A DNA stretch of 5,007 nt. It comes from a bacterium. Its GTDB lineage: Bacteria; JALSQH01. Below the pieces are notes generated by a model. The model had not been told where the DNA came from. It made no database searches and saw only the letters and a program-made list of their open reading frames with translations. The stretch is from positions 1-5,007 of the forward strand of contig JALSQH010000029.1 of assembly GCA_026985515.1 (NCBI GenBank), written 5' to 3'. Shown piece after piece: positions 1,275 through 5,007 of the stretch. Positions within the stretch are counted from its first letter, which is position 1; every line of letters begins with the position of its first letter. The position numbers and the translations under genes were made by a program.

Positions 1275-1520
1275 TCACTGGAACTTAGTTACTCTTTTTC
1301 TTGATTTCCATCTCTTAACTTCTTTTTCCCGTTTTCTTGCGAGCTGAATTGAAGAGAACTCTTCCTTGTAGATAAGGAACCATGGTCCTTTACCTCTGGT
1401 GTAATTGCTTGCACCGGAATTGTGCTGTTTAAGTCTATGTTCCAGATCGGTGGTTGATCCTATGTAGAGTCTATCAATTTTTGGAGAATAGATTATGTAC
1501 AAATAAGCCTTTTCTTTCAT
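1275..1520 (-). CDS. GIY-YIG domain nuclease-like small protein
   Basis: This is a stand-alone GIY-YIG protein of 81 residues, typical of the short YhbQ/UPF0213-like bacterial type. The GIY part is YIIYS (8-12) and the YIG part is YIG (19-21). R29 in LEHRL is the expected catalytic arginine, followed by H33 and N34, then the YTRGKGPW segment (40-47). E65 in KREKEVKRWKSR is the expected metal-binding glutamate. All key residues seem present and the length is nearly complete, so it looks intact. The family fold cuts DNA, but the role of these small chromosomal members is mostly unknown. The ATG at 1518-1520 lies 20 bases after the 3' end of tRNA-Asn on the same strand, has no Shine-Dalgarno, and there is no terminator between them. 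Expression probably comes by read-through from the tRNA promoter. Confidence 0.88.
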   Translation of the reverse strand: MKEKAYLYIIYSPKIDRLYIGSTTDLEHRLKQHNSGASNYTRGKGPWFLIYKEEFSSIQLARKREKEVKRWKSRKRVTKFQ

Positions 1521-1731: not shown

Positions 1732-3309
1732 GTGATGGAATGGATTGTAAATGTAATGGGTAGAATGGGGGTGCCACATGGGTATGCACCGGTACTGGCT
1801 TCCATTATCATTCTGATATTACTTGCTTTATCTGCGTACATCGGTTACAGAATAACATACTTTGTTCTGAAAAGAATCCTTTTCACCCTTTTTATCAGAA
1901 CAGAGAATGTTTATGACGATGTCCTTCTACAGAGGAGAGTTTTTGACAATCTTGCCCACATTGTCCCGGCGGTAATCATTATCTATGGTATAAATCTGGC
2001 AGGATTAAGTAAGGGTCTGACTGATTTCATAATTTCTCTAACATACTCATACCTGATTTTTGAGCTTCTTATTGTTACTCTGCGTTTCCTTGATGCACTC
2101 AATGATATGTACGAAATTTATGCTGAGAAAAAACAGCTGGAAGTCCATATAAAGCAGTACATTCAGGTCATCAAGGTGACCTTTGTTATAATCGCTCTGA
2201 TACTTGTAATTTCAATTTTTCTCAAAAAGAGTCCCGCTTCCATTATTGCTGGCCTCGGTGCAATGACAGCTGTGGTTATGCTGATTTTCAAAGATTCCAT
2301 TCTCTCTCTGGTGGCGAGTATTCAGATATCAGCCTATGATCTTGTTAAAGTGGGGGACTGGATTACTATCCCCGGCAGAAATATTGATGGGGATGTAATA
2401 GACATATCTCTCAACACCATCAAGGTAAAGAATTTTGATAACACCATCAGCACTGTTCCGACCTATGCTCTTGTTCAGGAGTCATTCAGGAACTGGAGAG
2501 GAATGGTCAGCAGTGGTGGCAGGAGGATAAAAAGGGCCATCTACATAGATATGAATACCATTCAGCTGTGTGATAGAGATATGATTGAAAAGTTTAAAAA
2601 GATTCACTACATCAGTGAGTATGTTACAAAGAAGCAGGAGGAGATTGATCGCTGGAACAGGGAGCACAATATCCAGGAACCAGTGAGGGTTAATGGAAGA
2701 GCTCAGACAAATATTGGAATTTTCAGAAAGTATGTTGAGAATTACATCAGGTCCAATTTCAAAATTTACAGAAAATTTTACAAACATGTTTTCGAAATTG
2801 ATGGAAGGAAATATGAGAAATTTGTTGTTGACGGTCCTGAAATGTTGAGGAAAAAATTTGGGGAAAGAATTGACAGATACCTGCAGGAAATTGATGAAAA
2901 AACTGTAATAAAAAATGTGGAGGAATTTCTCAAAGATTTTGGGGATCACTTCATACTTGAGAACAACGCAATTTATGAGGTAAGGAAGGTGAAAAAGGTG
3001 AAGGTGGTGAAGGGAGCGGAGGTTGAGGTGGAAGAGGTTGAAAAGGTTGTTGAGAGGGAGGGGAGATTCAGGGATGATATGACCCTCTTAGTCAGACAGC
3101 TTGATCCCACTGAAAAGGGTCTTCCACTTGAAATTTATGTCTTCACTGCCACGACAGACTGGGTTGAGTATGAATCAATTCAGTCCGACCTTTTTGATCA
3201 CATATTTGCAGTTCTTCCTGAGTTTGGCCTGAGAGTATTTCAGAGTCCCTCAAGTAACGACATCCGTGAATTCCTGGAAAAAGTTGTACAGGAGAAAAAA
3301 TCTGAATAA
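1732..3309 (+). CDS. ybdG: YbdG-family (MscS superfamily) mechanosensitive channel with insertion
   Basis: This 525-residue inner membrane channel of the MscS superfamily would open under membrane tension and release solutes during hypo-osmotic shock. Five hydrophobic segments lie near 20-42, 74-92, 97-118, 145-163 and 168-200; the last is the pore-lining helix (SPASIIAGLGAMTAV, then FKDSILSLVASIQIS). The beta domain follows (VGDWITIPG, then NFDNTISTVPTYAL), then the YbdG signature NWRGM (254-258) and GGRRIKRAIYIDM (262-274). The family pattern breaks after TNIGIFRKYVENYIRSN (326-342) and resumes at DDMTLLVRQL (448-457), ending in LPEFGLRVFQSPS (495-507). Between them lie about 105 residues absent from E. 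coli YbdG as I recall it (415 residues), matching the length excess. The insertion is K/E-rich and its last part alternates Val with charged residues. The reading frame is intact on both sides. The gene is the first of an operon with kup, 15 bases downstream. Confidence 0.93.
   Translation: MMEWIVNVMGRMGVPHGYAPVLASIIILILLALSAYIGYRITYFVLKRILFTLFIRTENVYDDVLLQRRVFDNLAHIVPAVIIIYGINLAGLSKGLTDFIISLTYSYLIFELLIVTLRFLDALNDMYEIYAEKKQLEVHIKQYIQVIKVTFVIIALILVISIFLKKSPASIIAGLGAMTAVVMLIFKDSILSLVASIQISAYDLVKVGDWITIPGRNIDGDVIDISLNTIKVKNFDNTISTVPTYALVQESFRNWRGMVSSGGRRIKRAIYIDMNTIQLCDRDMIEKFKKIHYISEYVTKKQEEIDRWNREHNIQEPVRVNGRAQTNIGIFRKYVENYIRSNFKIYRKFYKHVFEIDGRKYEKFVVDGPEMLRKKFGERIDRYLQEIDEKTVIKNVEEFLKDFGDHFILENNAIYEVRKVKKVKVVKGAEVEVEEVEKVVEREGRFRDDMTLLVRQLDPTEKGLPLEIYVFTATTDWVEYESIQSDLFDHIFAVLPEFGLRVFQSPSSNDIREFLEKVVQEKKSE
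2988..3014 (+). repeat. Three 9-base tandem units inside the ybdG insertion
   Basis: Units GGTGAAAAA, GGTGAAGGT and GGTGAAGGG follow each other exactly and encode Val-Lys-X three times (420-428). The following bases continue with degenerate GAGGTT/GAGGTG elements encoding Val/Glu. The surrounding coding strand is extremely C-poor: a single C (3017) between 2971 and 3068. Nine-base units keep the frame, so copy-number change would alter protein length without breaking it. Confidence 0.65.
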
Positions 3310-3324: not shown

Positions 3325-5007
3325 GTGAAAAGTGAAAACAGGTTATTACCCCTTTCAATTGCAGCCCTTGGCGTTGTTTTTGGTGACATTGGTACAAGCC
3401 CCCTCTACGCAATTAAGGAGTGTTTTACCGGTGATTATGGCATTGCTCCTTTGAGGGAAAATATTCTGGGGATTCTTTCCCTTATTTTCTGGACACTTTT
3501 AATAATTGTGACGATAAAGTATGTCATCTTTGTTCTCAAGGCTGACAACGAGGGCGAAGGGGGGGTTATGGCTCTCACCGGTCTGATAAAAAGAGTGGAT
3601 CCAGAGAAAAAGTTAACCCTTTTTGTACTCCTGGGTATTTTTGCAGCAAGTATGCTTTACGGTGATGGAATGATCACCCCTGCAATCTCAGTGCTGAGCG
3701 CGGTTGGTGGACTTGCCGTCGTTGCACCGGGACTCAAAGAATTTGTACTACCAGTCACAATTATTATTCTTATCGGGTTGTTTTTGATCCAGAGCAGAGG
3801 AACAGAAAAGGTTGGTTCTCTCTTCGGACCAATTATTTTCCTCTGGTTTCTTACCCTTGCTGTACTTGGTCTCATTCAGGTTGTGAAAAATCCCGTTGTT
3901 TTCCTGGCATTAAATCCACTCTATGGTTTTAAGTTTTTACTGAATGGAAATCTGAGAAGTTTCATAGTCCTTGGTGCAGTTTTCCTGGTTGCCACGGGTG
4001 CAGAGGCGATGTATGCAGATATGGGACATTTTGGAAGAAAACCAATCAGATTAACCTGGAGTGTGGTAGTTTTCCCCTCACTTGTGCTGAACTATTTTGG
4101 ACAGGGAGCTTACCTTCTCTCTCATCCAGAAAGTGCAGAGAACATCTTTTTCATGATCGCCCCGCACTGGTTGAGGCTTTATCTCCTCATCATCGCCACA
4201 CTTGCCACCATTATTGCGTCTCAGGCTGTTATTACCGGGTCTTTCTCCCTCACCAAGCAGATCATCCAGATGGGTTACTTCCCTAAAATGAAACTGGTGC
4301 ACACATCTTCCACAGAGAGGGGACAGATATATGTTCCTCTTATAAACTGGTTTCTCATGCTTGCCACAATAGGGCTTGTGCTTGGATTCAGGACCACCTC
4401 ACATTTAGCCGCAGCATACGGAGTTGCTGTTAATTTTACCATGATTGTTACCACCTTTCTCTTTTACATAATTTTGAGGAGAAAATTCAAGTGGGGTTTA
4501 TTGAATGCTTTTTTGCTCTCTCTCCTTTTCTTTGTCGTTGAGCTTTCCTTTTTTGTAGCCAATCTTTCAAAAATCATGCATGGAGCATGGTTCCCCCTTG
4601 TTGTGGGAGGAGTGTTTTATGTTATCATGAGAACATGGGAAAAGGGAAGAATGATTCTGAGGGAAGAGTTCAAAAAAATCACCATGGATGTGGAAGAGTT
4701 TAAAGATATGCTGGAAAAGGAGGATGTGATTAAGGTAAATGGGTACGCTGTTTTCATGACGGGGAGACCTGATGTTGTTCCATTTGCCATGATTCAAAAT
4801 GTGAGGCATAACAGGATAATTCACTCAACCTCAATTATTCTTCATATAAAATTTGAAACAATTCCAAGAGTGCCAAATCTTGAGAAGGTTGAGTTGGAAA
4901 AATTGGGTAATGGAATTTTCAGGGTAATTGCCAGAGTGGGTTATATGGAAGATCCAGATGTGGGAAAAATCCTTGAACTTGCCACTGCTTCCGGACTTGA
5001 TGTTCCA
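3325..5007 (+). CDS. kup: Kup/HAK/KUP-family potassium uptake transporter, C-terminus cut by window edge
   Basis: This secondary K+ transporter probably works as a K+/H+ symporter. From GTG 3325 the frame is open for 561 codons to the right edge; E. coli Kup has 622 residues and the alignment suggests about 60 are missing. Seen motifs: GDIGTSPLY (20-28), where D21 matches functional D23 of E. coli; ADNEGEGG (73-80); YGDGMITPAISVLSA (112-126), with D114 where E. coli has E116; ATGAEAMYADMGHFG (229-243); NYFGQGAYLL (256-265); ASQAVITGSFSLTKQ (298-312); HLAAAYGVAV (359-368). About 12 membrane segments occupy residues 12 to 440. The remainder is the cytoplasmic domain (VFMTGRPDVVPFAMIQN, 476-492). 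The usual SAVEG is SAVGG here (125-129). It is probably cotranscribed with ybdG. All 21 Arg codons are AGA or AGG. Confidence 0.97.
   Translation, partial: MKSENRLLPLSIAALGVVFGDIGTSPLYAIKECFTGDYGIAPLRENILGILSLIFWTLLIIVTIKYVIFVLKADNEGEGGVMALTGLIKRVDPEKKLTLFVLLGIFAASMLYGDGMITPAISVLSAVGGLAVVAPGLKEFVLPVTIIILIGLFLIQSRGTEKVGSLFGPIIFLWFLTLAVLGLIQVVKNPVVFLALNPLYGFKFLLNGNLRSFIVLGAVFLVATGAEAMYADMGHFGRKPIRLTWSVVVFPSLVLNYFGQGAYLLSHPESAENIFFMIAPHWLRLYLLIIATLATIIASQAVITGSFSLTKQIIQMGYFPKMKLVHTSSTERGQIYVPLINWFLMLATIGLVLGFRTTSHLAAAYGVAVNFTMIVTTFLFYIILRRKFKWGLLNAFLLSLLFFVVELSFFVANLSKIMHGAWFPLVVGGVFYVIMRTWEKGRMILREEFKKITMDVEEFKDMLEKEDVIKVNGYAVFMTGRPDVVPFAMIQNVRHNRIIHSTSIILHIKFETIPRVPNLEKVELEKLGNGIFRVIARVGYMEDPDVGKILELATASGLDVP

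Follow-up and report, generated by a model that had tools for sequence, protein, structure and literature searches.

Genes and features of the locus

The window analysed here, a stretch of 5,007 nucleotides, includes two genes on the plus strand, one for a YbdG-type channel of the MscS superfamily and one for a kup potassium transporter. The features are as follows, with residue numbers counted from the GTG start of the channel gene (the AlphaFold2 model begins one residue later).

750–1187, upstream of the channel gene: PsiE-family membrane protein (Pfam PsiE, E 3.8e-28)
1275–1520, minus strand: small open reading frame of 81 residues
1541–1616: tRNA-Asn
1732–3309, plus strand: YbdG-type MscS-superfamily channel gene, 525 residues, GTG start with an alternative ATG at 1735
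2707–2757 (residues 326–342), plus strand: left anchor of the insertion, α1 of the α/β domain, TNIGIFRKYVENYIRSN (alignment, model)
2773–3072 (about residues 348–447, ±5 residues), plus strand: inserted segment (alignments, spacing count)
2782–2988 (about residues 351–419), plus strand: predicted strand-strand-helix-helix-strand-strand part of the insert (AlphaFold2, low confidence)
2983–3060, plus strand: charge-segregated arm of the insert, lysine-rich at residues 418–427 (net +6), then glutamate-rich at 428–437 (net −5)
3073–3177 (residues 448–482), plus strand: right anchor, the β2–β3 hairpin and the loop with W477 (alignments)
3325–5007, plus strand: kup potassium transporter gene (Pfam), starting 15 nt past the channel stop

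The 81-residue minus-strand frame, which by eye resembles a GIY-YIG nuclease-domain protein, adjoins the tRNA-Asn. The channel and kup genes, and with them potassium release and uptake, are possibly co-transcribed; as a conserved neighbourhood the pairing did not hold up, not being seen in the homologous loci examined, many of which span only a few kb.

A YbdG-type channel with an otherwise intact core

The channel protein scores above the Pfam cut-offs for both domain profiles of the MscS superfamily, the MscS β-domain (PF00924, 58.1 bits against a cut-off of 20.2) and the MscS C-terminal α/β domain (PF21082, 33.2 bits against 21), and it resembles YbdG-type channels along the whole chain, including the GGRRIKR motif and the TNIG...RQL region. 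In a 26-sequence alignment its identity to homologues ranges from 35 to 48%, and the invariant residues of the channel core (38 invariant columns) are all intact. Domain profiles and alignment thus agree with the initial annotation in placing the protein among YbdG-type channels, and apart from the insert it is a normal MscS-superfamily subunit, presumably tension-gated. The lengths quoted there are also right: the open reading frame has 525 residues and E. coli K-12 YbdG has 415.

An insertion found in one lineage

The homologues come from one scan of contigs from GTDB species, with 31 loci, from two samples taken around the window's genome (59 and 386 genomes) and from three samples at phylum level (7, 398 and 40 genomes); pairwise alignment with the insert-free core left 102 distinct sequences, the window's included. 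The spacing between the TNIG and LLVRQL motifs was scored in the 99 distinct homologues with both anchors, two further ones standing outside the count with an anchor unaligned, one of them truncated. This distance is 25 residues in 84 of the 99, as in E. coli YbdG, and 26 in the other 15, whereas in the window protein it is 126, a net gain of 100–101 residues. The window protein therefore falls outside the standard length of 25–26 residues, which is a statement about length variation and not a definition of a functional family. At 90% identity the 99 homologues split into 86 clusters, and at 70% into 65, so the absence of the insert from every one of them is not that of one clade counted repeatedly; the longer homologues (open frames of 450–611 residues) likewise lack it at the TNIG–LLVRQL site. 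The segment had been proposed to have no counterpart in YbdG, a view that would fail if most homologues carried it or if E. coli YbdG aligned across it without a gap; none of the 99 carries it, and the E. coli protein aligns with a gap.

The anchors had been placed correctly, YVENYIRSN ending at residue 342 (nt 2757) and DDMTLLVRQL starting at residue 448 (nt 3073). Of the originally drawn borders, 2758–3072, the right one stands, while the left one lies about five residues too early and takes in part of an ancestral loop: FKIYRK (residues 343–348) pairs with the homologues' own HPRIRK-type loop (HPRIRK itself in E. coli), and the gap in the 26-sequence alignment begins past the YRK region. 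Because FKIYRK matches that loop, the best borders are at about residues 348 and 447. The insertion is real; it is so far seen in one sequence of one lineage, in a channel whose core is otherwise of a known kind, and the limited open-access set of literature that we searched mentions no insertion at this position.

Coding character and origin of the insert

The frame is open across the insert, with stops in both other forward frames, and its synonymous codon use (0.108) lies within the range of the N-terminal half of the same gene (0.114 ± 0.024). The initial annotation had described an in-frame cytoplasmic insertion free of membrane segments, which fits both the open frame and the lack of any membrane-type stretch in the sequence. 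Lysine makes up 15% of the insert, glutamate 17% and valine 15%, with no serine, tryptophan or cysteine at all.

A source for the segment was sought in several places. The insert is present in single copy in the window's genome, where a DNA search for a mobile or repeated element returned only short chance matches; no repeats were found at its borders, and tandem or internal duplication was rejected, the best local scores (30 and 24) falling below the shuffled means. No relatives were found in the plasmid, phage and viral collections, nor any convincing match among the 386 genomes. The only other genome from the phylum in the sample, a sister genome 80% complete in which the channel copy was not detected, gave a weak match (E 0.008) that falls in an aroB-like gene and is attributable to chance. 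The profile search of the insert by itself, which the initial annotation had proposed, yielded nothing above the curated cut-offs in Pfam and NCBIfam and nothing convincing in PHROGs or PDB sequences; the weak matches (KwaB, TIGR00288, pelota, BOP1NT, phrog_248, RIF2_lid) lie far below cut-off, are mutually inconsistent and are taken to reflect composition.

A thermophilic host with one recognised channel

The window's genome (2.36 Mb in 268 contigs, 97.6% complete) encodes two separate reverse gyrases (contigs C220 and C120; L103, L104, L106), whose scores of 1177 and about 966 bits exceed the curated cut-off. Reverse gyrase is a mark of thermophiles, and the gene content thus supports both a thermophilic host and the thermal setting suggested earlier; that the lysine- and glutamate-rich composition of the insert reflects heat is plausible. 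The inserted channel gene is the one MscS-family match in this genome, and no match to MscL was found in the 97.6% complete draft, so the protein seems to be the host's sole recognised MscS/MscL-type channel, subject to the missing 2–3% of the genome. Such a status raises the stakes of any functional change without showing one.

Predicted structure and position of the insert

AlphaFold2, run with the homologue alignment, models the core with good confidence and the insert at only 30–58; the insert alone reaches a mean pLDDT of 50, and a fold search with that model gave a best Foldseek E of 2.3, a value that carries no meaning for so poor a model. The two runs, which are not independent, agree on the order of elements at about residues 351–419 and differ on the charged arm. 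Structurally, the whole model comes closest to YnaI chains (Z ~15), and its α/β domain, ordered β1-α1-β2-β3-α2, resembles ribosomal protein S6, which has a ferredoxin-like fold (Z 8.2 over 77 residues, 2.4 Å). We infer from the model that the insert sits between α1 and β2 of this ferredoxin-like domain.

This location bears on the lateral portals of the cytoplasmic cage. Bulky residues, W184, F209 and W299 among them, stand in the loops that encircle the portals of YnaI (PMC8137935), and in TtMscS the bulky M243 and W246 narrow the portals (PMC5661003). W477 of the window protein aligns without a gap to YnaI W299, and all 99 homologues have tryptophan at this position. In the model, the start of β2 (about residues 449–450) would lie opposite the end of β3 (about 471), six residues ahead of W477; because β2 and β3 form a hairpin and W477 follows β3, the insert would be rooted at the edge of the domain that bears the portal tryptophan, and its root is probably beside the lateral portal, near W477. 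Being rooted close to the portal need not make the insert cover it, its direction and distance being deduced from topology.

Volume sets a further constraint. One insert of about 12.1 kDa occupies about 14,600 Å3 and seven about 102,000 Å3, four to six times the 17,000–24,000 Å3 of a vestibule taken as a sphere with the reported radius of 16–18 Å (PMC8137935). The seven inserts therefore cannot all lie inside the cage and must, at least in large part, project outwards.

Possible roles of the insert

The reading that we tentatively prefer, at well short of even odds, is a domain on the outside of the cage, specific to one lineage and next to the lateral portals, that probably affects solute entry. 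In one thermophilic lineage the channel subunit would have gained about 100 additional cytoplasmic residues; the seven inserts would form a ring projecting outwards round the cage, and this ring of charged arms would filter or slow ions and osmolytes, according to their size and charge, as they enter the seven portals. Tension sensing would stay with the membrane part of the channel. The spacing in 99 homologues, the intact invariant residues, the domain order, the S6 match, the equivalence of W477 and W299 and the volume estimate speak for this reading; against it stand a single sequence, with no conservation to show selection on the insert, and the low AlphaFold2 confidence (30–58) for the insert. 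Portals belong to the permeation path: enlarging them in YnaI by F209A raises conductance about fourfold (PMC6019658), and in FLYC1, where they shape conductance and selectivity, reversing the charge of two lysines at the portals cuts conductance about twelvefold and the preference for chloride over sodium threefold (PMC8844309). A bulky charged ring beside them would thus be expected to affect solute entry. A stronger form, in which the seven charged domains act as an added outer gate and control solute entry separately from the pore in the membrane, the host being a thermophile with no other recognised MscS/MscL-type channel, we consider unlikely.

Nearly as likely as the preferred reading, and practically level with it because one sequence gives no measure of constraint, is a neutral or stabilising ornament: a loop expansion tolerated outside the cage, perhaps adding heat-stabilising salt bridges and leaving conduction and gating unaffected. 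An insert absent from 99 homologues and without relatives, rich in lysine, glutamate and valine and devoid of serine, tryptophan and cysteine, in a host with reverse gyrase, would fit such an ornament, as would its predicted place in a surface loop between a helix and a strand; yet about 100 residues in seven copies are costly, and the strand-helix-strand order predicted twice, albeit in runs that are not independent, suggests a folded unit. The charge blocks of +6 and −5 could instead belong to a cytoplasmic sensor, whose charged arm would respond to ionic strength, crowding or a ligand by opening or closing and would shift gating or inactivation through the α/β domain. The MscS cage has reportedly been described as a crowding sensor (Rowe et al. 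2014, as cited in PMC4440785), and the kup gene lies 15 nt downstream of the channel, both of which count towards this role; the insert, however, matches no known sensor or ligand-binding family and the kup neighbour does not recur in the homologous loci examined, leaving a sensor unlikely. The initial annotation had offered a sensor or a gating clamp among its options; with no known domain family matching the insert, the results speak neither for nor against these two.

The outward-facing position deduced from volume would also suit a module onto which another protein docks, for instance an enzyme or a protein of the cell envelope, a role that we regard as improbable, there being no candidate partner and no known interaction domain that matches the insert. 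That one genome carries the segment, and that this genome is a draft of 268 contigs, raises the question of an assembly error or chimera; the insert, however, is in frame, flanked on both sides by intact conserved residues, within the gene's range of codon use, present in single copy and without a source in the rest of the genome, which makes an artefact very improbable. The vestibule-blocking element named as one option in the initial annotation, with all seven inserts filling the vestibule and blocking the pore from within, would need four to six times the volume available; in that form it is excluded by volume, and we give a plug next to no weight.

Comparison with known channels

In MscS-like channels conductance and selectivity are determined at the portals, and the purpose of the large cytoplasmic cage is still debated; a naturally occurring channel with some 100 added residues, rooted probably beside the portals, offers a ready-made test against its own deletion, and if that deletion had no effect, the insert would be merely a tolerated loop expansion. 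Among the closest known channels is E. coli YbdG (miniconductance channel, b0577, NP_415109), which is 43% identical over the insert-free core and shares the YbdG-type helical segment (about residues 281–311) and the invariant residues, but has 415 residues in all and 25, not 126, between TNIG and LLVRQL; no YbdG structure was found in the copy of the PDB that we searched. The nearest sequences in the 26-row alignment, YbdG-type channels of Paenibacillaceae (L032–L035; 45–48% identity), have no insertion. E. coli YnaI (PDB 6urt, 7n4t, 9h95 and others), the best structural match of the model, with a portal tryptophan, W299, that corresponds to W477, has neither the insertion nor the YbdG-type segment. 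The plant MscS-like channels Flycatcher1 and MSL10 also carry cytoplasmic regions beyond the MscS core, and one state of FLYC1 has a short N-terminal peptide extending to the portals (PMC8844309); unlike the segment described here, however, their extra regions lie elsewhere in the chain and not at the α1–β2 loop.
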